Of a stretch of 64,000 bases of DNA, positions 8,681 to 58,370 are shown piece after piece. The stretch's first letter is position 1, and every line of letters starts with the position of its first letter. The notes beneath the pieces were generated by a model that was not told the DNA's origin, ran no database searches, and saw only the letters and a program-made list of their open reading frames with translations. The stretch lies in assembly GCF_040546585.1 (NCBI RefSeq), contig NZ_JBEPOC010000001.1, positions 1,612,001 to 1,676,000 of the forward strand. Direction: 5' to 3'. A program made the position numbers and the translations under genes. The DNA is from Marmoricola sp. OAE513. Its GTDB lineage: Bacteria; Actinomycetota; Actinomycetes; Propionibacteriales; Nocardioidaceae.

Positions 8681-10438
8681 TCAGGGCAGGTTCACGACGA
8701 CCGTCGCGCTCTTGCCTCCGTAGGCGATCACGTAGACGTGGGTGCCGCGGGTCTGCGTTCCGACCTGGATGAAGAAGTTGCGTCCGATGACGCCGCTCCC
8801 CTTGAGGTGGACCCCCTTCTCGCTGACGGTGATGCTGCCCGCGATCGGGAGGGGCGCGTTCGTCTTGCCCGAGAGCGTGACGAAAGGCTTGGCCGTGGTG
8901 CCGGACACGTCCACGTTGACGACGAAGCCGGCGTCGACCGGCGGCGCACCGACCGTGATGGTCACGGTGTTGCCGACGGCCGGGTGACCTGCGTCCTTCA
9001 CGGTGTAGTCGAAGGTCGCCGTGCCGCTGAAGCCGTACGCCGGGGTGAAGGTGGCCTGGTTCCCGTTGAGGGAGACCGTGCCCTGCTCCGACGTACCGAC
9101 CGTGTAGGTCAGCGGGTCACCGTCGGGGTCCGAGCCCGCCAGCGTGACCGTCTTGGCCGCACCGAACGGCGTCGACGCCGCGACCGGTGCCGCGGTCGGA
9201 GCCGCGTTCGGCGGGATGCCGATGAAGGTGTACTTCGTCGACCCGATGGTGATCGAGTTGATCACGCCGTGGCCCTGAACGCCCGATCCGAGGGACCAGC
9301 CACCGAACAGGATCTTGGCCTGCGGGAACACGCCGCGCCACTCGGCGAGGGTGCCGTGGTTCTCGGACCCGAAGCCACCACCGTGCTGCGGAGCATCAGC
9401 CTTGACGATCGCGGACGACCCGTTGGTCAGCCACCAGTCGTTGCCGTACAGGACGTTGCCGTTCGCGTACTTCGGCTCACCGACGAGCGTGCCGTCGGGC
9501 AGCCCGTCGTTGTCGAAGTCGACGACGAGCTGCGTCGAAGGCAGGAGCGCGCCCTCGTAGTTGGTGTAGTTGAGCGACGGCTCACCGGCCGCGCTCAGCG
9601 GCAGGGCGTTGGTGCTGAAGTAGCCCGCAGACTTGGCCTGGCTCGAGGTCGGAGCAAGGACCGTCTTGATCTCCACACCACCCTCGGGCAGGAACGTGTT
9701 CGTCCCCTGGGACCGGGTCTCCGAGGTGTCGACATCGGCCGCGGTCAGCACCTTGGTCGTCTGGGCCGGGGCCGGGGCGAACGTGTACGTGTCGCCGGCG
9801 ATGACGAAGTTGTTGATGAACCCGTCACCCTTGACGCCCGAACCGAGCGACCAACCACCCTGGACGACCTTGGCGGCTGGGAAAGCGGTCTTCCACTGGG
9901 CCAGCGTGCCGTTGTTATCGGAGCCGTAGCCGCCGGAGTGCGAGGGCGCGCCTGCCTTCACGAAGGCAGCCGAGCTGTTCGAGGCCCACCAGACGTTGCC
10001 GTACAGCGGGTCACCGTTGGCGTAGGTCGGCTCGCCGACGAGGATGCCGTCGATGCTGCCGTCGCCGTTGAAGTCGACCTTGAGCTGCAGGCCGGGGCGC
10101 AGGGTGTTCACTCCGATGTTGGCGGTCCACGACATGGTGGGCTCGACCGCAGCAACCGCGGAGAGCGTGCGGTTGACGTCGAAGTAGCCAGCAGCCTTGT
10201 CGGTCGCGGTCGCGCCCTCGGTGTAGACGCGGACCTTGCCGTTCTCGAAGACGTTGTGGCCGGTGGCCCGGGTGTCGGACTGGTCGACCAGGTTGGCCGT
10301 GACGACCTTGTTGGCGGCCTCGGCGGGACCGAGACCGGACACCAGGCCGGCAGTGACTACCGCAGCGACGGCAACCCCGACCGGCAACCGATAGCTCTTG
10401 AGTGCACGGTGGCGCGCACTGAGGGGAGATGAAGACAT
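8681..10438 (-). CDS. Secreted protein with two copies of a ~180-residue unit plus Ig-like domain
   Basis: 585 residues; a long signal peptide (about 1-42, ending GPAEAA) marks it as exported. Residues about 45-225 and 235-405 are two copies of one unit. Shared blocks are GYF near the start, VDF(N/D)(G/D)DG..DG.LVGEP.YANG, LYGN.WW, a G-rich S(G/E)N(N/H)GTLA.W segment and GGWSLGSGV.G.G.IN. The VDFNGDGS stretch looks like an EF-hand-like calcium loop. Residues about 425-510 form a cadherin/Ig-like domain (GSDPDGDPLTYTVG), followed by a short C-terminal beta domain. I know no function for this family; an extracellular binding or surface role is inferred. AGAGG sits 9 bases before ATG 10438. Confidence 0.75.
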   Translation of the reverse strand: MSSSPLSARHRALKSYRLPVGVAVAAVVTAGLVSGLGPAEAANKVVTANLVDQSDTRATGHNVFENGKVRVYTEGATATDKAAGYFDVNRTLSAVAAVEPTMSWTANIGVNTLRPGLQLKVDFNGDGSIDGILVGEPTYANGDPLYGNVWWASNSSAAFVKAGAPSHSGGYGSDNNGTLAQWKTAFPAAKVVQGGWSLGSGVKGDGFINNFVIAGDTYTFAPAPAQTTKVLTAADVDTSETRSQGTNTFLPEGGVEIKTVLAPTSSQAKSAGYFSTNALPLSAAGEPSLNYTNYEGALLPSTQLVVDFDNDGLPDGTLVGEPKYANGNVLYGNDWWLTNGSSAIVKADAPQHGGGFGSENHGTLAEWRGVFPQAKILFGGWSLGSGVQGHGVINSITIGSTKYTFIGIPPNAAPTAAPVAASTPFGAAKTVTLAGSDPDGDPLTYTVGTSEQGTVSLNGNQATFTPAYGFSGTATFDYTVKDAGHPAVGNTVTITVGAPPVDAGFVVNVDVSGTTAKPFVTLSGKTNAPLPIAGSITVSEKGVHLKGSGVIGRNFFIQVGTQTRGTHVYVIAYGGKSATVVVNLP

Positions 10439-10742
10439 GGAAATGGAACCTCTCGTGACGAACGACCGGACGACCCCTGGGAGAAGGAGCTGGCCGAACC
10501 CGAATTTCGGAATGTTCGCTGTCGAAAATAGGCACAACCCGCGACAGGTGGCTGAACAGGGCTAGACCGCACGCCGAACGGAGCTCGGACGAACCGGACA
10601 TCCCTCTCGATCCGGCTGCCAACTCCTCCGAACCGGTTGACGCCCGAGCCTTGAAACCGCCGTGAAGCCGTCGTGAAACCGCGGCGGCGGAGGGTTCGTC
10701 CCGACCGGCCCACTCCCGAGCCGGCCAGGAAGGAGCATCACG
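10439..10742. other. Divergent intergenic region between a secreted protein gene and an ABC exporter operon
   Basis: 304 bases holding the two divergent promoters. The only clear element is a set of three 11-bp direct repeats at 10651-10683; no RNA gene or conserved small ORF is apparent. Confidence 0.6.
10651..10683 (+). promoter_or_regulatory. Three 11-bp direct repeats, SARP-type operator candidate
   Basis: The octamer TGAARCCG occurs at 10652, 10663 and 10674 (TGAAACCG, TGAAGCCG, TGAAACCG), so the copies are spaced exactly 11 bp, one helical turn. SARP/AfsR regulators bind heptamer direct repeats with this spacing just upstream of the -10 box. The site is 60 bases upstream of the exporter start, and a SARP-type regulator is encoded at the other end of the same operon (12616-15750). 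Confidence 0.5.
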
Positions 10743-12619: not shown

Positions 12620-15600
12620 CGGTTCAACGAGCCGACGTAGGCCCGGGTCTCCTCCAGGAGGTCCGGGCCTCGTCGTACGCCGTACTCCGCCTGGGTCTGC
12701 TCCAGCAACCCTGGGGCACGGGTCTCCGCCTCGGCAGCGATGCGGGCCCACGACATCGTCGGGATGCTCCGGTTGTAGGCGAACCGGTCCGCCAGCACCA
12801 GCAGCCGGACGGCGTCCTCGACTGGGAGCGCGTCGTGCTGCAGCGCCCATGCGCCGAGCGCGAAGAGGCCCAGCCCGCAGACCGGGAAGTCGAGGTAGGG
12901 GTACTCCGGGTCGAGCACCAGCGCGAGTCGGCCGAGGTTGTTCGCGAACAGCTCGCGGGCGAACCCGTCGTCGTTGTCGTCGTACGCGTAGGCGGTCAGC
13001 GCCGCCGCCTCCGCGAAGAGCACCCACGGCTCGAGTCCCGTCGTGGCCATGCCGGGGAACTCGAGGGTACGCACCTTGAGCACCGCCTCGCGGTAGAGCG
13101 CGAGCCCTTCCTCGGTGTCTCCGCACGCCAGAGCGAGCTCTGCGGTGGCGAGGTCGATCACCAGTCCGCCGCCAAAGACGCCCTCGGTCTCCTCGGCCTT
13201 GTCGAGGTGGGTGATCTCCAGAGCCGCCTGGTCGAGGCGTCCTTCGAGGATCTGCGAGAGCACCACCAGCGAGCGCAGCTGCAGCGAGTCGTCGCGGGCC
13301 CCGAGCCGCTCGAGCACGGGCAGCGCCGCCTTGGCGTGCTCGACCGCGTCCTCGTGGTGCCCGAGCTGCATCGTCAGCTGGGCGAGCTGCGTGTGCAGGA
13401 TCGCACGGGTCCACGGCCCGTCCTCTGCCGTGGTCATCGCGATCGCCCGCTGGGCGGAGGCCATCGCGGCCTCCGGGTCCCCGATGTTCTCCAGCGCGTG
13501 GCTCTGCCACTGCAGCGCACCGACCGCGAGGTGCCGGTCGGAACTCGTGACGAGCACGTCCAGGTTGGCCACGAAGCCGAGGGCATCGCTGGGGTCGAAG
13601 TCCTTCATCAAGGTGACCATCGCCTGGATGCGTGGATCCCCGTCACCCGGGCCGAGACGGCGCAGGTGCTCGCGCAGCTCCTCGATGTGGCGGGTGTTGC
13701 CGATCATCCCGTTGTTCACCGTGACCGCGAGTGCGGACCGCGCGGAGTCCGCGACGTCGTCGGGCGGGGTCCAGCCACGCACCGTCTCCGCCACCGCGTC
13801 GGTGAGCGTGAAGACCCGCGCGTGGTCGCCGAGGATCATCCAGTAGCCGCCGAGGCCCGCGAGGATCGACACCAGGGTCGAGGGGTCCTGGGCGGCGACG
13901 GCCTGCCGGAGCACGTCGGCGAGGTTGTTGTCCTCGGCCCGGAAGGCGTCGACGGCCGCGAACTGACCGGGACCCATCAGGCCGGCCGCGTGCCGGACGG
14001 CGTACTCGACGGCCCAGCCGCGGTGCGCCGACTGCGCCGCGTCCTCGTCCCCGGACTCCACGAGCTGCATCCGACCGAACTCCCGGACCGTCTCGAGCAT
14101 CCGGCAGCGGATCCCGCTCGGGGCCTCGACCACGGTCACCAGCGACTGGTCGGCGAGGTTCTGGACGGCGTCCAGCGCGATCGGTCCGAGGACGGTCTCG
14201 GCGGCGTCGAGGGTGAAGCCGTCGTGGAAGAGGGACAGCCAGCGCAGGGCGTGCCGCTCGTCCTCGCTGAGCAGGTTCCACGACCAGTCGATGACGGCGA
14301 GGAGCGTCTGGTGCCGGTCGGGAGCGCTGCGGTCCCCACCGCGCAGCAGGGCGAACCGGTTCTCCAGCCGACGTGCGATGTCGGCCGTCGACATGACCCG
14401 CACCTTGGCGGCGGCCAGCTCGATGGCCAGGGGAAGACCGTCCAGGCGCTCGACGATCTCGCGCACAACGCCGTCGATCTGGACGTCCGGACGAGCCGCC
14501 ACCGCGCGCTGCCGGAACAGCTCGACACCGTCGTCGAGGTCCAGCTCGCCCAGCGGGTAGACGGTCTCGGCCGAGATGGCGAGCGGCGACCGGGTCGTCG
14601 TCAGCACCCGCAGCGTCCGGGTGGTGGCGACCAGGTAGGCCACCAGGTCCGCGACCGCGGCCACGATGTGCTCGCAGTTGTCGAGGATGAGGAGGCTCGG
14701 CGACTGGTCGAGGTGCTGCGCGATCCGGGCCCGAACGTCGGCACGCTGCTCCGGCGTCAGCGCACGTCGGCCGCTCACGGAGTCACGCACGCCCAGCGCG
14801 GAGCCGACCTCACCGATCAGGTCGTCGGGCGAGGTCACCGCGACGAGCTCGACGAAGTGCACCACCGGCTGGCTGGCCTCGCGTCCGAGGACGTGGGCGA
14901 GACGGGTCTTGCCGAGACCACCCGGACCGAGGATCGACACGACACGGGTGGTGCCGAGCAGAGCGTGCAGACGGCGGATGTCCTGCTCGCGACCGAGCAG
15001 CGTCGTGGCCTCGTAGTGCACGCCCTCCCGCACGGGGCTGTCCGCGGCGAGGAGCTCGGCGTGCATCCGCTGCAGCTCTGCACCGGGGTCGGCACCGAGC
15101 CGGTCGCGCAGGTCGGTGCGGTGCAGCTCGAACCGCTCGAGCGCAGCGCCGGTGCCGCGGACCGCGGCCTCGCTGCGCAGCAGGTCGACCAGCAGGCCCT
15201 CGTCGTCGGGACTCTGCTGCGCGGCCGCCTCCAACCGCGGCAGGGCGTCGGCGTGGTCACCCAGCCGGCTGGACGCTCGAGCCCAGGCGACTGCCGCGGT
15301 GCGCAGGTCGTCGGCCGCGTCGCGCCGTACGTCGGCCAGGGGGCCGATCGCATCGCCGGCAGCCACCAACCCTGCTCCGAGCTCAAGCGCCTCGGCGGCG
15401 CGGGCAGCGGCAGTCGCCGGGTCGCGCTCGAAGGTGGTGCGGGCACTCGCGGCCAGCGAAGCAAGCAGGCTGCTGTCGACCTCGTCCGCCGGGATGCCGA
15501 GGCGGTAGCCGTCGCCGTCACGCACGACTGCGTCCGGCGAGCACGCCGTCCGGGTGCGCGAGACCAGCACCTGCAGTGCCTTACCCGGGTTGGCCGGGAC

Positions 15601-52833: not shown

Positions 52834-52994
52834 GGGAGCTCCAGGAAGGGTGAGAACACGCAGTGACGAGCAACGGGGTGCCTGCAGGCTAGGGCGGATC
52901 GAAGGTCCCGTCGAGGATCGATTTGCAGCGCGTCCGGGGTGGAGGCGTCCTAGGGTGGCCGAGACACGTCCCCTCACATCTCGGTGGTGCACGC

Positions 52995-53807
52995 ATGCGC
53001 AAGTCCCTCGTGGTCGTCCTGACCACACTCGCACTCGTCCTCGGGTTCGGCACCCTGGCGGACGCCGCGACGGCGAAGAAATCCTTCAAGGTCTCCATCA
53101 AGTCCAACGTCGCGGTCTCCCAGGCCGGCCGGTTCATCGTGATCTCCGGCAAGGTCTCCGGGCCCGGCGCCGGCGGCAAGAAGGTCAAGGTGCAGCGCCA
53201 GTACATCGGCGGAGCCTGGATCACCGTTGCCACCGTCACCACCAAGAAGTCCGGCAAGTACAAGGCCGTCGTCGAGACGCCTCGTGGTGGCACCACGTCG
53301 TTCCGCGCACTCAAGGCCAAGTCGTCCGCGCGCAAGGCCGGTGTCAGCGCCACCAAGGCCCTGCCGGTGTACCAGTGGCTCGACCTGGCCACCCAGCCCG
53401 GCCAGCTCAACAACACCTTCCCGGTCCAGGAGCAGGTCGGCGGCACGCTGTACGAGCACGCCTTCTCGTTCAGCCAGGGCGGCGGTATGGCCTACCGACC
53501 CTCCGGCCTCTGCACCGAGTTCGCCACCCGGTTCGGCTACAAGACCACCGGCCAGCCCCCGGTGGCCGATGACGCGAACCTCGAGCTGACCCGCATCCAG
53601 ACCAACCCCGCGCCGTCGATCTCCACGTCGACCTCGGTGAGCACCGGGAACGCGGTGACCTTCACCTCGTCACTCGCGGGCACCAAGTACCTGACGATCG
53701 AGGTGACCAGCATCGCCGGCGGCGGCTCGTACTTCGCCGCGCTCGGCGACCCGAAGGTCTACTGCAACGCCTCGACCCTTCCCACCTTCCGCAACGGCGA
53801 CTTCTGA
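52995..53807 (+). CDS. Secreted paralogue 1: beta-sandwich N half, NPCBM-like C half
   Basis: 270 residues. Signal peptide 1-25 (TLADAAT), a basic beta-sandwich domain (about 26-125, KKVKVQRQYIGGAWITVATV) and a C half (about 130-270) with FPVQEQVGGTLYEHAFSF, CTEFATRFGYK and ALGDPKVYC, which I read as an NPCBM/NEW2-like carbohydrate-binding module. The first of three tandem copies; its N half is clearly the most diverged of the three. Two Cys can form a disulphide. Adjacent to a GH3 glycosidase. Function inferred from fold only. Confidence 0.78.
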   Translation: MRKSLVVVLTTLALVLGFGTLADAATAKKSFKVSIKSNVAVSQAGRFIVISGKVSGPGAGGKKVKVQRQYIGGAWITVATVTTKKSGKYKAVVETPRGGTTSFRALKAKSSARKAGVSATKALPVYQWLDLATQPGQLNNTFPVQEQVGGTLYEHAFSFSQGGGMAYRPSGLCTEFATRFGYKTTGQPPVADDANLELTRIQTNPAPSISTSTSVSTGNAVTFTSSLAGTKYLTIEVTSIAGGGSYFAALGDPKVYCNASTLPTFRNGDF

Positions 53808-53817
53808 GGAGATGACC

Positions 53818-54639
53818 ATGCGCAAGACACTCCTGGTAGCACTCACGACCCTCGCTCTCGTCCTCGGCTTCGCGACCCTGGCGGACGCCGCCACGGCGAA
53901 GAAGTCGTTCAAGGTCTCCATCAAGTCCAACGTCGCGACCTCCCAAGCCGGACGGTTCATCGTGATCTCCGGCAAGGTCTCCGGGCCCGGCGCCGGCGGC
54001 AAGAAGGTCAAGATCCAGCGCCAGTACATCGGCGGCGCCTGGACGAACGTGGCCACCGTCGTCACCAAGAAGTCCGGCAAGTACAAAGCCGTCGTGGAGA
54101 CCCCGCAGGGCGGCACCACCTCGTTCCGCGTGATCAAGGCCAAGTCCTCGGCCCGCAAGGCCGGCGTCAGCGCCACCAAGGCCCTGCCGGTCTACAAGTG
54201 GCTCTACCTCGACCACGAGCCCGTGAACAGCTTCAGCAGCGACTACCAGGCCGGGCTCGTGCAGCAGATCGACGGCAAGACCTATGCGCACTCCTACCGG
54301 TTCAGTGCGGGCAACAGCTACCTGGCCTTCAAGCTGAGCGGGCTCTGCACCACGTTCACGACCCGCGCCGACTACAATGTGTTCAGCGGACCGCAGCCGG
54401 TGGACACCTACACGTTGAAGACGATCGCCCAGAAGAGCAGCGGCCCGGCGATCCAGAAGTCGGTGGTGGTGAGCCTCTTCACGCCGGTCACCGCGAGCCA
54501 GTCGCTGGTCGGGGTACGGACACTCGGTGTGAACCTCGAGTCGCTCAACGCCGCCCCGTACTACGCGGTCCTGGGTGACCCAAAGGTCTACTGCAACGCG
54601 GAGCACCTGCCGAGCTGGGTCGAGGGCGACTTCATCTAG
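53818..54639 (+). CDS. Secreted paralogue 2
   Basis: 273 residues, same plan as its neighbours. ATG 53818 (MRKTLL) has GAGGAG six bases upstream; ATG 53812 is also possible. The segment from about 53857 to 54220 is almost identical in DNA to paralogue 3 (about nine differences in 365 bases by eye), yet the C halves differ strongly (YRFSAGNSYLAFKLSG against FRFTQGSSYLQYKTAG). Ends ...LGDPKVYCNAEHLPSWVEGDFI (here: PKVYCNAEHLPSW). Confidence 0.8.
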   Translation: MRKTLLVALTTLALVLGFATLADAATAKKSFKVSIKSNVATSQAGRFIVISGKVSGPGAGGKKVKIQRQYIGGAWTNVATVVTKKSGKYKAVVETPQGGTTSFRVIKAKSSARKAGVSATKALPVYKWLYLDHEPVNSFSSDYQAGLVQQIDGKTYAHSYRFSAGNSYLAFKLSGLCTTFTTRADYNVFSGPQPVDTYTLKTIAQKSSGPAIQKSVVVSLFTPVTASQSLVGVRTLGVNLESLNAAPYYAVLGDPKVYCNAEHLPSWVEGDFI

Positions 54640-54666
54640 ACGCAACCCGCACATCTCTTCGTGCGC

Positions 54667-54699
54667 TGTAGGGCCCGATCGGGAGGATCGGGCCCTACA
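54667..54699 (+). terminator. Terminator between secreted paralogues 2 and 3
   Basis: Perfect 14-bp stem TGTAGGGCCCGATC / GATCGGGCCCTACA with a 5-base loop. It makes paralogue 3 a separate transcript, with its own leader resembling that of paralogue 1. Confidence 0.85.
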
Positions 54700-54740
54700 G
54701 TGAAGGCTCCGCATTCCCTCTGAGTCTCGGTGGTGCCCGC

Positions 54741-55562
54741 ATGCGCAAGACACTCCTCGTCGTTCTCACGACGCTCGCTCTCGTCCTCGGCTTCGCGACC
54801 CTGGCGGACGCCGCCACGGCGAAGAAGTCGTTCAAGGTCTCCATCAAGTCCAACGTCGCGACCTCCCAAGCCGGACGGTTCATCGTGATCTCCGGCAAGG
54901 TCTCCGGGCCCGGCGCCGGCGGCAAGAAGGTCAAGATCCAGCGCCAGTACATCGGCGGCGCCTGGACGAACGTGGCCACCGTCGTCACCAAGAAGTCGGG
55001 CAAGTACAAGGCCGTCGTGGAGACCCCGCAGGGCGGCACCACCTCGTTCCGCGCGATCAAGGCCAAGTCGTCCGCGCGCAAGGCCGGTGTCAGCGCCACC
55101 AAGGCCCTGCCGGTCTACAAGTGGCTCTACCTCGACCACGAGCCCCCGGCCCACGGTGGCAACGACTACCAGGCAGGACTGGCCGAGACGATCAGTGGTG
55201 TGAACTACCCGCACTCGTTCCGTTTCACGCAGGGGTCGAGCTACCTGCAGTACAAGACGGCCGGACTGTGCACGACGTTCACGACCCGTGCTGACTACAA
55301 CGTGTTCAACGGCCCGCAGCCGGCTGACGAGTACGCGTTGGTGCTCATCACCGAAAAGGCGAACAGCCCGTCGGTGCAGAAGGAGTACGAGGTGCCGCTG
55401 TTCCAGCCGAAGACGGTCACCCAGTCCATCGCCGGGGTGAGGCGTCTGACCGTCGCCCTGGAGACGCTCAACGCCAGCCCGTACTACGCGGCGCTGGGTG
55501 ACCCGAAGGTCTACTGCAACGCCGAGCGCCTCCCGAGCTGGGTCGGCATCGACTTCATCTGA
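54741..55562 (+). CDS. Secreted paralogue 3
   Basis: 273 residues with signal peptide, basic beta-sandwich and NPCBM-like C half (PHSFRFTQGSSYLQYKT, TTFTTRADYNVF, YYAALGDPKVYC). The 17 bases before its ATG (TCTCGGTGGTGCCCGC) match those of paralogue 1 except for one base, so the leader was duplicated with the gene. N half homogenised with paralogue 2. Confidence 0.8.
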   Translation: MRKTLLVVLTTLALVLGFATLADAATAKKSFKVSIKSNVATSQAGRFIVISGKVSGPGAGGKKVKIQRQYIGGAWTNVATVVTKKSGKYKAVVETPQGGTTSFRAIKAKSSARKAGVSATKALPVYKWLYLDHEPPAHGGNDYQAGLAETISGVNYPHSFRFTQGSSYLQYKTAGLCTTFTTRADYNVFNGPQPADEYALVLITEKANSPSVQKEYEVPLFQPKTVTQSIAGVRRLTVALETLNASPYYAALGDPKVYCNAERLPSWVGIDFI

Positions 55563-55624: not shown

Positions 55625-56092
55625 TCAGTGCGCCACCAGCTGCGCGCGCGTGGGCACGAACGGCACCACCCGCAGCCGCATCCCGGCCTCCTCGGGAGTC
55701 CGGTCCGCCTTGCGGTGGTTGCAGCGCTCGCACGCCGCGACCGTGTTCAGCCACGAGCAGGGTCCACCCCGGCTGACCGGGAGGATGTGGTCCACGGTCT
55801 TGCCCCAGCCCCCGCAGTAACCGCACCGGCCGCGGTCACGGCGCAGCACGCCGCCGCGGGTGTAACCCGCTGGCCGGTACAGCCACGTAGCAGCGACGTA
55901 CCGGACCAGCTTGATGACACGCGGCCACTGGTGCGGGCCGATCATCCGATCGGCGTGACCCTCCTCGACGGTCGCTACCTGGCGGAAGAGCATCCGCACC
56001 GCGTGCTGGAAGGAGACCCGACCCAGCGGCTCGTAGGAGGCGTTCAGCAGCACCACCGAGCCACTAGCCGTTGCCATGGACACCACCGCCAT
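55625..56092 (-). CDS. HNH endonuclease
   Basis: 155 residues. Zinc/HNH motif CGYCGGWGKTVDHILPVSRGG with CERCNHRKADRT (key parts CGYC, TVDHILP, CERCNHRK) is complete, so nuclease activity is likely. The N-terminal part (VVLLNASYEPLGRVSFQHAV) is conserved in actinobacterial HNH proteins of this type. It is the last gene of the leftward RtcB cluster, 39 bases after the RtcB stop. ATG 56092 has AGAGAGGAG abutting it; ATG 56077 is a shorter alternative. Confidence 0.85.
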   Translation of the reverse strand: MAVVSMATASGSVVLLNASYEPLGRVSFQHAVRMLFRQVATVEEGHADRMIGPHQWPRVIKLVRYVAATWLYRPAGYTRGGVLRRDRGRCGYCGGWGKTVDHILPVSRGGPCSWLNTVAACERCNHRKADRTPEEAGMRLRVVPFVPTRAQLVAH

Positions 56093-56131
56093 CTCCTCTC
56101 TCTTCCTAGTGTGCGCTCTGGTGCGCGTGGT

Positions 56132-57358
56132 TCAGCCCTTCACGCACATCAGCGTGGTGAGCTTCGCGACGACCTCGACGAGGTCCGTCTGGGCCTCGAT
56201 GACGGCACCGAGGTCCTTGTAGGCGCCGGGGATCTCGTCCACGACGCCGGCGTCCTTGCGGCACTCGACGCCCTCGGTCTGGGCAGCGAGGTCCTCGACG
56301 GTGAAGGTCCGCTTGGCCTTGTTGCGCGACATCTTCCGACCGGCACCGTGCGATGCCGACCAATACGACGCCTCGTTGCCGAGGCCCTTCACGACGTACG
56401 AGCCGGTGCCCATCGAGCCTGGGATCAGACCGAGCTCGCCGTCACCGGCGCGGATCGCCCCCTTGCGGGTGACGATCAGCTCGGTGCCGTCCGACAGCGT
56501 CTCGGTGGCCACGTAGTTGTGGTGAGCCGAGATCTGCTCGCCGTAGGACACCTCCAGGCCGGCCTTCGCGAACGCGGTGGAGACCACCTCGCAGAACAGC
56601 GCCATCATCACGGCACGGTTCCGCGCGGCGTACTCCTGCGCCCAGTGCAGGTCACGCAGGTAGGCGTCCATCTCCGGCGTACCGGCGAGGAACACCGCGA
56701 GGTCGCGGTCCGGGAGGTCGAGGTTGTGCTCGAGGCCCTTCGCGCCGTGGATGTGGCGCTCCGCGATCTCCTTGCCGATGTTGCGCGAACCCGAGTGCAG
56801 CATCAGCCACACCTGACCGTCCTCGTCGGACGTGAGCTCGAGGAAGTGGTTGCCACCACCCAGCGAACCCATCTGCTTCATCGCCTTGCTCTCCCGGTCC
56901 TGGACGCCGGGGTGCAGGTCACCGAAGCCGGTCCAGAACGCCGTCCAACCGTCGTACCGGCCGTGGTTGACGCCGAGGCGCCGCACGTCCGGCGCACTGT
57001 CGTGCGACCGGAAGCCCACCGGTACGGCGCGCTCGGTCGCCAGCCGCAGCGAGCGGAGGTCCTCGGGGAGGTCCTCGACGGTGAGGCTGGTGCGCACCGC
57101 CTGCATACCGCAACCGATGTCGACGCCGACTGCGGCCGGTGAGACGGCGTCGCGCATGGCGACGACCGAACCGACGGTCGCACCCTTGCCGAGGTGGACG
57201 TCCGGCATCACCCGCAGCCCGTGGACCCACGGCAGCCGCGAGATGTTGCGCAGCTGCTCCAGCGCCTGGTGCTCGACCTCGTGCGGATGTGCCCACATCA
57301 GGGTCTCGGCGCCTGCGCCCGGCAGAGCCACCGGGAAGCCGTGGTTGTTCGTGCTCAT
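56132..57358 (-). CDS. rtcB: RNA-splicing ligase RtcB
   Basis: 408 residues, the length of E. coli RtcB. It joins RNA ends with 2',3'-cyclic phosphate or 3'-phosphate to 5'-hydroxyl ends, using GTP and Mn2+. Key motifs are complete: GVDIGCGM (metal Cys near 80), GGGNHFLEL (His), HSGSRN, HHNYV and SHGAGRKMSRNKA (guanylylated His), ending VKG. AAGGAGGCGAACAGCG precedes ATG 57358. No archease, RtcA or RtcR-like gene is in the window. Flanking genes are tRNAs, a WhiB protein and an HNH nuclease, so repair of cleaved tRNA is the likely task. Confidence 0.96.
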   Translation of the reverse strand: MSTNNHGFPVALPGAGAETLMWAHPHEVEHQALEQLRNISRLPWVHGLRVMPDVHLGKGATVGSVVAMRDAVSPAAVGVDIGCGMQAVRTSLTVEDLPEDLRSLRLATERAVPVGFRSHDSAPDVRRLGVNHGRYDGWTAFWTGFGDLHPGVQDRESKAMKQMGSLGGGNHFLELTSDEDGQVWLMLHSGSRNIGKEIAERHIHGAKGLEHNLDLPDRDLAVFLAGTPEMDAYLRDLHWAQEYAARNRAVMMALFCEVVSTAFAKAGLEVSYGEQISAHHNYVATETLSDGTELIVTRKGAIRAGDGELGLIPGSMGTGSYVVKGLGNEASYWSASHGAGRKMSRNKAKRTFTVEDLAAQTEGVECRKDAGVVDEIPGAYKDLGAVIEAQTDLVEVVAKLTTLMCVKG

Positions 57359-57410
57359 CGCTGTTCGCCTCCTTCGGCGGTTGCTTGCTTGTCAGTTGTC
57401 GTGTGGTGCG

Positions 57411-57482
57411 TGCCCCCTCCAGGAGTCGAACCTGGGTCCCCGGCTTCGTAGGCCGGTGTCGTGTCCGCTGGACCAAGGGGGC
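57411..57482 (-). tRNA. tRNA-Arg(ACG), atypical copy in the RtcB cluster
   Basis: 72 bases folding as a cloverleaf: acceptor GCCCCCT/AGGGGGC, anticodon loop CTACGAA with ACG, T arm CCAGG-TTCGACT-CCTGG, variable loop of only 4. The D stem has one mismatch (GTCC/CGAC) and A20 of arginine tRNAs is present. No CCA is encoded. Its body differs from the ordinary tRNA-Arg(ACG) at 63196-63268. It lies 52 bases upstream of RtcB on the same strand. Confidence 0.85.
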
Positions 57483-57492
57483 GTCGTACGCC

Positions 57493-57523
57493 GGGGCCCA
57501 CCGCTCCGACGGCGGTGGGCCCC
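57493..57523 (-). terminator. Stem-loop between the WhiB gene and tRNA-Arg
   Basis: Perfect 12-bp stem GGGGCCCACCGC / GCGGTGGGCCCC with a 7-base loop, between the WhiB stop (57534) and the tRNA (57482). No U tract, so it may be a processing or pausing signal rather than a full stop. Confidence 0.55.
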
Positions 57524-57533
57524 CTACCGGGAA

Positions 57534-57854
57534 CTAGGCAGCCGAGACCTTCCGGGGCCGACCCGGCTGCCGGACCTTCTCCAGCGGCTTGCCGTTCTCC
57601 AGCAGGACGCCACCCCAGACACCCCACTCGTCCCGGTTCACACCGAGCTCGAGGCAGAGGTCCCGGACGGCGCACGAGCCGCAGACCGCCAGTGCCTGCT
57701 CGAGCGCGACCTGGTCGGTCGGGGCGAACACGTCCGGGTCGTCGTGGTCGGCGCAGCTCCACGCGGCCGGACCGAAGTCCGGGGTCGGGAACGTGAACGC
57801 GACCGTCACGCCCTTGGTGTCGAGCAGGTCGTCCTTCGTCTTCATCATCTTCAT
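57534..57854 (-). CDS. WhiB-like iron-sulphur regulator
   Basis: 106 residues. Four Cys for a [4Fe-4S] cluster: WSCADHD, then CGSCAVRDLCLELG (CxxC plus C), followed by the GVWGG turn and a basic GRPRK tail, an AT-hook-like DNA-binding end. WhiB-like proteins bind sigma factors and sense redox or NO. GAAGGAGGTGA stands eight bases before ATG 57854, a strong ribosome site. Being inside the RtcB cluster, it probably controls it (inference); members in phages also exist. Confidence 0.9.
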   Translation of the reverse strand: MKMMKTKDDLLDTKGVTVAFTFPTPDFGPAAWSCADHDDPDVFAPTDQVALEQALAVCGSCAVRDLCLELGVNRDEWGVWGGVLLENGKPLEKVRQPGRPRKVSAA

Positions 57855-57912
57855 GTGCCGTCACCTCCTTCGTCGGTCGGTGGCACGTGCCGTGCTCCGC
57901 GGTGGAGCAAAG

Positions 57913-57985
57913 TCGGGTTGGCGGGACTCGAACCCGCGGTTGCCTGCGCCCGAAGCAGGAGGGATGGCCGCTTCCCCACAACCCG
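57913..57985 (-). tRNA. tRNA-Pro(CGG)
   Basis: 73 bases: acceptor CGGGTTG/CAACCCG with A73, D stem GGGA/TCCC, anticodon stem CCTGC/GCAGG with loop TTCGGGC (CGG, G37), 5-base variable loop and T arm GCGGG-TTCGAGT-CCCGC. All stems pair. No CCA is encoded. Located upstream of the WhiB gene in the RtcB cluster. Confidence 0.9.
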
Positions 57986-57998
57986 TCACTGGTGGTCT

Positions 57999-58085
57999 GC
58001 GGAGCTCCGAAAAGCAGAAGAGCCGCTCCGCGAGGTCGGAGTCCGCGTGTGGGCACACGCTGACTTCTGCCTCCGCTGGAGCGGC
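57999..58085 (-). ncRNA. Structured leader RNA with two competing stems
   Basis: On the - strand, 58085-58078 pairs with 58029-58022 (8 bp GCCGCTCC/GGAGCGGC) around a long inner hairpin (GCGTGTG/CACACGC, extended by GACT/AGTC). The same 3' arm can instead pair with 58005-57999 (GCTCCGC/GCGGAGC). The two forms exclude each other. It lies between the 47-codon gene and tRNA-Pro. A switch or processing element is suggested; chance pairing in this GC-rich DNA cannot be ruled out. Confidence 0.35.
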
Positions 58086-58112
58086 CCGGACGTTTCCGGT
58101 GCTTCTCGGCAC

Positions 58113-58256
58113 CTACATCGGCGGCTCCAGCGAGGTCGGCAGCTGCTGACCCTCGACCTTGCAGGGCTCGTAGCCTCCGAGGGATCGCATCCAGGCATCA
58201 CCCAGCGCACGGACCGCAAAGCGGTTCGTGATCACGGAGGTGCTCCTGGTATTCAC
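58113..58256 (-). CDS. 47-codon small protein gene at the head of the RtcB cluster
   Basis: GTG at 58256 with GAGAAGGA six bases upstream opens VNTRSTSVITNRFAVRALGD and then WMRSLGGYEPCKVEGQQLP, ending PPM. The ribosome site is one of the best in the region, which favours a real gene, but codon use alone does not decide it and I recognise no family. It is divergent from the BASS transporter gene and first in the leftward cluster. Confidence 0.45.
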   Translation of the reverse strand: MNTRSTSVITNRFAVRALGDAWMRSLGGYEPCKVEGQQLPTSLEPPM

Positions 58257-58370
58257 TGCGATTCCTTCTCGGTGGTGGCGCCGGCCTCGGTGACCGACGC
58301 AGGCAAGGGTAGGAGGACGGAGCGCTGCGGACCTAACGGGTTTCTGCGAGCTCAGATGTTTGACTGCCCT

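Follow-up and report, generated by a model that had tools for sequence, protein, structure and literature searches.

Arrays of supernumerary, divergent tRNA genes, with copies on plasmids and chromosomes and with HNH endonucleases of one family, are described in mycobacteria (PMC5966550, PMC12803027) and in the trn operon of Anabaena (PMC10272220). The Anabaena repressor TrcR controls rtcB and HNH genes together with the trn operon; all of them rise in its absence, and the trn operon responds to translation inhibitors (PMC10272220). The leaders of whiB7 genes operate by an upstream open reading frame (uORF), a terminator and an antiterminator (PMC10727445, PMC11550727), and in Mycobacterium abscessus a tRNase toxin raises whiB7, a rise that the authors link to stalling (PMC10287673). 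Here we describe a locus in Marmoricola sp. OAE513 in which an RtcB RNA ligase gene stands with two tRNA genes, a WhiB gene and an HNH gene. The locus lies in a 64,000-nucleotide stretch of contig NZ_JBEPOC010000001.1 (positions 1,612,001 to 1,676,000; hereafter the window). Comparison of its sequence with relatives makes it probable that this is a reduced actinobacterial tRNA array with an RNA ligase, gated by a whiB7-type attenuator.

Although tRNA arrays have been catalogued, we know of a regulator in print for one cyanobacterium only (TrcR). Arrays, co-control of RtcB and HNH, and whiB7 attenuators are each known, and we found no description of the combination in the literature searched. 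A search for RtcB, WhiB and tRNA in actinobacteria returned nothing, with preprints and most subscription papers outside its reach; a search for tRNA arrays with RtcB and HNH returned only the TrcR paper (PMC10272220); and no paper on attenuated tRNA arrays was found among the titles and abstract openings listed. The words RtcB and WhiB do not occur in the mycobacterial array papers (PMC5966550, PMC12803027). Relative to described arrays, the window has only two tRNAs, but has rtcB, HNH, the tRNAs and WhiB adjacent behind a probable uORF attenuator, where Anabaena has the TrcR repressor. With the whiB7/wblC attenuators (PMC11550727, PMC10727445, PMC7157823), it shares an AT-rich box before the -35, a uORF, an intrinsic terminator, a predicted overlapping antiterminator and a WhiB7-like gene downstream; it differs from them in having tRNA genes and rtcB behind the switch and a WhiB protein that lacks the EPW motif.

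On the minus strand of the window, from 58344 down to 55625, a promoter-like site is followed by a 47-codon open reading frame, a hairpin-rich leader, tRNA-Pro(CGG), whiB, tRNA-Arg(ACG), rtcB and HNH (Table 1). From the 47-codon frame onward this is the single-strand order given in a first-pass annotation of the same DNA, which spoke of six elements but listed seven; the strong ribosome sites it noted are present as AAGGAGGTGACGGCACATG 5' of whiB and CGAAGGAGGCGAACAGCGATG 5' of rtcB. That annotation took the locus for a counterpart of the Salmonella rtc operon. In Salmonella and Escherichia coli, rtcBA with RtcR places rtcB under linked regulation in stress. The regulator adjacent to rtcB in the window is a WhiB protein and not RtcR; neither RtcR nor RtcA adjoins the locus by eye, the genome not having been searched for them, and Rfam detects no Y RNA in the window, only tRNAs. 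The nearest relatives of the locus are instead bacterial tRNA arrays.

ARAGORN and the Rfam model agree on both tRNAs, which score 57.1 and 59.5 bits with the latter. The genome, a single contig of 3.89 Mb with 47 tRNA matches, holds 45 others, including one tRNA-Arg(ACG) and one tRNA-Pro(CGG). The array tRNA-Arg(ACG) shares 59% identity with the host's own copy and 89% with the copy in the array of a relative, L141; for tRNA-Pro(CGG) the values are 65% and 86%, the L141 copy having the anticodon TGG. The window thus carries supernumerary tRNAs unlike those of its host, as arrays do. Because they are divergent extra copies, a role as spare parts fits them better than a role as substrates. Like arrays, the locus also has an embedded HNH gene, for which a cutter or mobile-element remnant was proposed at first. 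Its family is one of tRNA arrays: it has matches in 63 plasmid records, and all three that were opened proved to be arrays (39, 28 and 17 tRNAs).

Among 294 genomes of the family, rtcB was found in 106 (E ≤ 1e-40). Eighteen of these, including the window, form the clade of the window's RtcB (at least 62% identity) and 88 form a control group (43-51% identical); all 18 clade loci and 20 control loci were read. A same-strand tRNA lies within 1.5 kb upstream of rtcB at 11 of the 18 clade loci and a WhiB gene within 1 kb upstream at nine, whereas no tRNA lies within 8 kb of any of the 20 control genes (Fisher one-sided p = 2.6e-5 for tRNA linkage). The earlier proposal of a single unit made up of tRNAs, RNA repair and a WhiB of its own is supported. 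Adjacent tRNAs are missing at seven clade loci, and the whole order including HNH is seen at three. L141 has five tRNAs, WhiB, Arg-His, RtcB and HNH, while L145 has the full form, with tRNA-Trp and 18 further tRNAs, WhiB, Arg(ACG)-His-Thr-Gly-Arg, RtcB, HNH and tRNA-Cys, so that 24 tRNAs precede rtcB. Since the order recurs in other genomes, it is not peculiar to this strain. Partial matches to rtcB in L074 (residues 8-268 of the query), L076, L154, L155, L156 and L157 indicate genes that are interrupted or cut.

Beyond the family, an order-wide survey of 293 genomes found clade rtcB in 72 (E ≤ 1e-100), 36 of them within one genus with genomes of 7.4-9.7 Mb, which we take to be Kribbella-like. 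These 36 loci were all read and all are surrounded by tRNAs, and the HNH family is present in each of the 20 searched at 13-20 kb. Pseudactinotalea L307 carries 36 tRNAs and a tmRNA, with 33 tRNAs preceding rtcB; on the Curtobacterium plasmid W01, rtcB is preceded by 34 tRNAs together with a tmRNA; and Occultella L310 and L311 have three and four tRNAs. Same-clade rtcB without tRNAs is common, for example in Gordonia, Williamsia and most Nonomuraea loci, and among class-level genomes outside the family (21 genomes; 25 short loci, L178-L202, scanned) a tRNA lay within 1.5 kb at one locus, L189. On an Eremiobacterota contig (L103), 27 tRNAs, an HNH gene of the same family (46% identity) and rtcB stand in a row, showing that the linkage crosses phyla.

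A tRNA-Arg is kept in 11 of 13 Nocardioidaceae loci, reduced or full (seven ACG, four GCG), every other tRNA occurring in at most three; this count omits L142, L151, L152, L156 and L157, which are without an adjacent tRNA or WhiB. In the Kribbella-like arrays, tRNA-Arg(ACG) and tRNA-Gln(CTG) are each present in 36 of 36. L146, L148, L149 and L150 retain WhiB, tRNA-Arg and RtcB, and their tRNA-Arg upstream of rtcB has the anticodon GCG, which would need no inosine and would not read CGA. A tRNA-Arg with this anticodon is unusual among bacteria. Where tRNA-Trp(CCA) is present, it leads the array and is spaced from the next tRNA (L145, L153, L307, W01 = L308+L309, L312, L314, L230, L267). The tmRNA genes of L307 and W01 lie inside the arrays (reverse-complement coordinates 13921-14272 and 10302-10692, respectively), and on a Curtobacterium array plasmid an annotated Thg1-type tRNA(His) guanylyltransferase is found 8.5 kb past rtcB (L304, 19721-20509).

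Plasmids and phages that carry arrays or the RtcB family of the window raise a different explanation, in which the tRNAs and ligase shield a mobile element against the anticodon nucleases of its host, with a domesticated remnant left in the chromosome. An anti-defense role has been put forward in print for mycobacterial arrays (PMC12803027) and for cluster K phages with tRNAs and RtcB (PMC3203893). In those phages, as in Rhodococcus phage Weasels2, tRNAs, HNH and RtcB lie close together, with phage genes intervening. The unit in the window is chromosomal, and no mobility gene was recognized by eye among the flanking open reading frames, no search aimed at such genes having been made. We regard an anti-defense cassette as a rather unlikely account of this locus.

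We next consider the leader, whose sequence suggests how the array may be controlled. The first-pass annotation listed the 47-codon frame as a gene separate from the leader; the two probably form one regulatory element, most likely a single uORF attenuator of the whiB7 type. The uORF may instead begin at a later GTG that has a ribosome site, which would shorten it to 40 codons. Its peptide weakly resembles the whiB7 uORF (TRSTSV; an equal or better score in 80 of 2000 shuffles), and NCBIfam and PHROGs searches with it were uninformative, as was a consensus terminator scan, which called nothing in the region and missed the leader hairpin too. A known structured RNA family was ruled out for the leader, since all Rfam matches in the window are tRNAs. 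A uORF of ~41-71 codons followed by a GC-rich hairpin and T-run was seen ahead of the first array element in 52 arrays: 36 Kribbella-like, 10 Nocardioidaceae (the window, L141, L144-L150 and L153), L310, L311, L307, W01, L312 and L314. The L141 and L144 leaders, which are without a clear ribosome site, were set by hand with computed hairpins, and the L307 leader was judged by eye. The layout was not seen before the mycobacterial array L313. A strict detector (ribosome site, 35-75 codons, hairpin of -18 kcal/mol or lower, four T in eight, within 60 nt) fired at all 36 Kribbella-like arrays against 11 of 400 random windows (2.75%), and over the 52 arrays and L313 at 39 of 53 (the 36 Kribbella-like arrays, L145, L153 and L147), or 40 of 53 counting the window. 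A lax detector (three T in eight, longer gap allowed), the only one with which the plasmid arrays L312 and L314 were scored, fired at 49 arrays (36 Kribbella-like, 8 of 10 Nocardioidaceae and five of seven others, missing L307 and L313) and at three of eight further Nocardioidaceae rtcB loci. The lone clade rtcB genes of L151 and L152 have a common 38-codon uORF ending in QEPPTR and an array-type terminator, GGGCCGCTCC..GGAGCGGCCC.

An attenuator of this type would require the end of the uORF to pair with the 5' arm of the terminator. We compared the last 39 nt of the uORF with this arm in 44 leaders (34 Kribbella-like that passed a first filter and 10 Nocardioidaceae); as the leaders are related sequences, the counts from these switch tests are not independent. 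Pairing was stronger than with codon-permuted uORFs, reaching p < 0.05 in 26 of 44 leaders with a mean z of -1.9, and the duplex of the window (z -4.1 against 300 codon permutations) was the strongest of the 44 by energy. In folds of the RNA that extended as far as the terminator loop and included a modeled ribosome footprint, predicted pairing of the arm with the uORF was 0.78 with the footprint on the CGA codon discussed below or mid-uORF and 0.44 with it on the stop codon. The mean change of 0.34 compares with 0.05 for permuted uORFs, and it exceeded the control mean in 37 of 44 leaders and all eight controls in 19. For the window, the in silico change was 0.83 against -0.05 for permuted uORFs. 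Nocardioidaceae uORFs prefer their own arms (-24.0, against -22.2 with arms swapped and -16.0 with Kribbella-like arms).

Upstream of the uORF lies a candidate promoter. WblC-activated promoters of Streptomyces coelicolor, whose regulon takes in six tRNA genes, have the form GAAAWY, 3 bp, TKGMNN, 16-19 bp, TANNNT (PMC7157823), and mycobacterial WhiB7 likewise uses an AT-rich box 3 bp 5' of the -35 (PMC10727445). With up to two mismatches, this consensus was found in 40 of 48 leaders, compared to 4 of 3000 random windows and 50 of 2880 shuffled leaders; with up to three, in 47 of 48, compared to 91 of 3000 and 404 of 2880. The promoter-like site of the window has three mismatches, and since 91 of 3000 random windows match equally well, the resemblance here is only moderate. 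The RAAACYYGTTAGG of this site occurs once in the whole genome.

The WhiB protein of the window has M. tuberculosis WhiB7 as its closest solved relative (E 5e-11). Four cysteines and the G[VIL]W[GA]G turn are present by sequence and Pfam, DEW replaces the EPW motif, and the putative AT-hook tail is PGRPRK (RGRP in Aeromicrobium-type array WhiBs). Of five other WhiB proteins in the host, L285 is the host's own whiB7, with EPW, RGRPRK and a leader in which a terminator-like hairpin comes after a 70-codon uORF. In a tree, array WhiBs group with L285 and L286 against the other three, with support of 90/95, below the starred level, and long branches; we therefore call the protein WhiB7-like and not WhiB7. 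WhiB as a stress regulator, as first proposed, fits, but sensing is more likely done by the ribosome that translates the uORF. A reading along the lines of the original proposal makes the tRNAs substrates or signals in RtcB repair and WhiB a sensor of redox or iron stress; it draws on the gene linkage and on the iron-sulfur cluster bound by WhiB proteins (PMC10727445). It strikes us as improbable: the tRNAs resemble complete additional copies, the signal suggested by the leader is translation, and the Kribbella-like arrays searched manage without WhiB.

Several observations weigh against an attenuated, reduced array. The high density of many tRNAs typical of arrays is absent from the window, which has two; because it is present in the same-order relatives L145 and L141, "reduced array" is a claim of descent. 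WhiB was found at none of the 20 Kribbella-like loci searched. The strict leader detector fired at only 4 of 10 Nocardioidaceae arrays, one of eight further Nocardioidaceae rtcB loci and none of L310, L311, L307 and W01, and it also fired at 6 of 20 control rtcB genes; the lax detector picked up 64 of 400 random windows (16%) as well as 8 of 20 controls. The six strict control hits (L158-L163, without tRNAs) have their own related uORF of 37-38 codons and a terminator ~245-285 nt upstream of rtcB, so rtcB attenuation seems to extend beyond arrays. In the window, the uORF is followed by an intrinsic terminator whose T-run is imperfect. The modeled switch is weak in L141 and nil in L149. Swapping arms within the Kribbella-like set made no change (-22.9 own, -22.8 swapped); covariation as proof of the antiterminator was accordingly rejected, and the pairing is conserved but not demonstrated by covariation.

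The small tRNA number also invites the view that the locus is a decaying remnant, having lost most tRNAs and retaining the rest without function: L145 has 24 tRNAs before rtcB where the window has two, and the rtcB clade is scattered, occurring in 18 of 294 family genomes. This we find very improbable, as the window retains intact RtcB active-site stretches, the WhiB cysteines and the HNH motif, both tRNAs fold, its uORF-terminator pairing leads the 44 leaders, and tRNA-Arg is held in 11 of the 13 Nocardioidaceae loci counted above. The Cys and His stretches of RtcB, which hold the catalytic residues, align by eye with 2epg.

Under the attenuated-array interpretation, a WblC/WhiB7-type promoter would start a leader containing the 47-codon uORF. 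In normal translation, the ribosome would reach the uORF stop codon and cover the antiterminator strand, allowing the terminator to form and leaving the operon off. If the ribosome stalled inside the uORF, due to translation inhibitors or loss of a tRNA, perhaps tRNA-Arg, the uORF end could pair with the terminator 5' arm and prevent termination. Transcription would then pass through tRNA-Pro, whiB, tRNA-Arg, rtcB and hnh, which we infer to share a transcript. The WhiB7-like protein would amplify its own promoter, the array tRNAs may replace damaged tRNAs, RtcB would reseal cleaved RNA, and HNH may spread or keep the array. Resealing of RNA by RtcB is established for the family. If this is right, an attenuator of their own couples actinobacterial arrays to the WhiB7 translation-stress response, and a single circuit would link spare tRNAs with RNA repair by RtcB and with the reaction to ribosome-targeting drugs. 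One codon, the promoter box and the two RNA strands identified here can be tested by reporter.

The codon is CGA. In 34 aligned Kribbella-like uORFs, the arginine of a conserved CLRS motif is encoded by CGA in 32 and CGG in one, and is replaced by Gln (CAA) in one; two unaligned uORFs have CGA and CGT, giving 33 of 36. Elsewhere CGA makes up 9 of 133 other uORF arginines, 6.3% in surrounding long open frames and 18 of 1114 in rtcB genes (Fisher p = 6e-25 for the enrichment, with related sequences treated as independent). The difference from other uORF arginines indicates that the codon is kept and not the residue alone. Conservation through base pairing was considered and rejected, since no conserved helix of the alignment fold contains the CGA column and since CGA persists in leaders that read CGACCC or CGACCG, the partner change being judged by eye. 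CGA as a rule for all arrays was likewise rejected, as near-fixation is confined to the Kribbella-like genus. It is also present in the uORFs of the window (58185-58187, context ATG-CGA-TCC), L141, L036, L039, L146, L149 and W01 and absent from that of L307. In the L241 uORF, Leu-Arg-Ser occurs five times in a row, as if a CTG-CGA-TCC unit had been amplified.

In the window's host, the genome covered by this check, the sole reader of CGA is tRNA-Arg(ACG), i.e., tRNA-Arg(ICG), and no tRNA-Arg(TCG) was found among its tRNA matches. CUG-CGA, the pair seen in Kribbella-like uORFs, is an inhibitory codon pair in yeast and is linked to I-A wobble (PMC6379720). We tentatively suggest a self-replacing tRNA-damage circuit, in which the leader would measure tRNA-Arg(ICG) through CGA, read by weak I-A wobble, so that a cut, scarce or unmodified tRNA would call up the spare tRNA-Arg(ACG) and the ligase. 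The attenuator would then sense a tRNA and not an amino acid or drug. Somewhat more plausible, while still short of an even chance, is that the same attenuator senses ribosome-targeting drugs or stalled peptides generally, via the nascent peptide. Many drugs trigger whiB7/wblC leaders (PMC11550727), CLRS is kept as a peptide too, the CLRS of L151 uses CGC, and uORFs of the window's family vary in their arginine codons; the strong CGA bias of the Kribbella-like CLRS arginine argues against this general sensing.

Table 1. Features of the tRNA-whiB-rtcB-HNH locus in the window.
Feature	Position	Strand	Basis
Promoter-like site, WblC/WhiB7 type, GAAACC-CGT-TAGGTC-18 bp-TACCCT	58306..58344	-	Consensus comparison
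uORF, 47 codons from GTG (MNTRSTSV...LEPPM)	58113..58256	-	Relatives have uORFs at equivalent position
Putative antiterminator strand 1, CGCTGGAGC, within last uORF codons	58124..58132	-	Complementary to 58074-58082
Terminator hairpin, dG -44.7 kcal/mol	58020..58087	-	Fold energy
Putative antiterminator strand 2 (terminator 5' arm), GCTCCAGCG	58074-58082	-	Complementarity to uORF end
Imperfect T-run, TTCTGCTTTTC, after terminator hairpin	58009-58019	-	Sequence
tRNA-Pro(CGG), second copy in genome	57912..57985	-	ARAGORN and Rfam
WhiB protein, WhiB7-like	57534..57854	-	Pfam PF02467, E 6.9e-10
Strong GC hairpin without T-run, between whiB and tRNA-Arg	57493..57524	-	Sequence
tRNA-Arg(ACG), second copy in genome	57410..57482	-	ARAGORN and Rfam
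RtcB RNA ligase	56132..57358	-	Pfam PF01139, E 1.8e-122
HNH endonuclease, array-associated family	55625..56092	-	Pfam HNH_5, HNH; E 4.6e-10

The flanks of the locus share a single 147-bp match with those of L141 and no further synteny. Beyond the HNH gene, on the plus strand of the window (52923-55562), a secreted-looking protein of ~275 residues is encoded in three related copies in tandem, and Pfam was blank for the one copy scanned.

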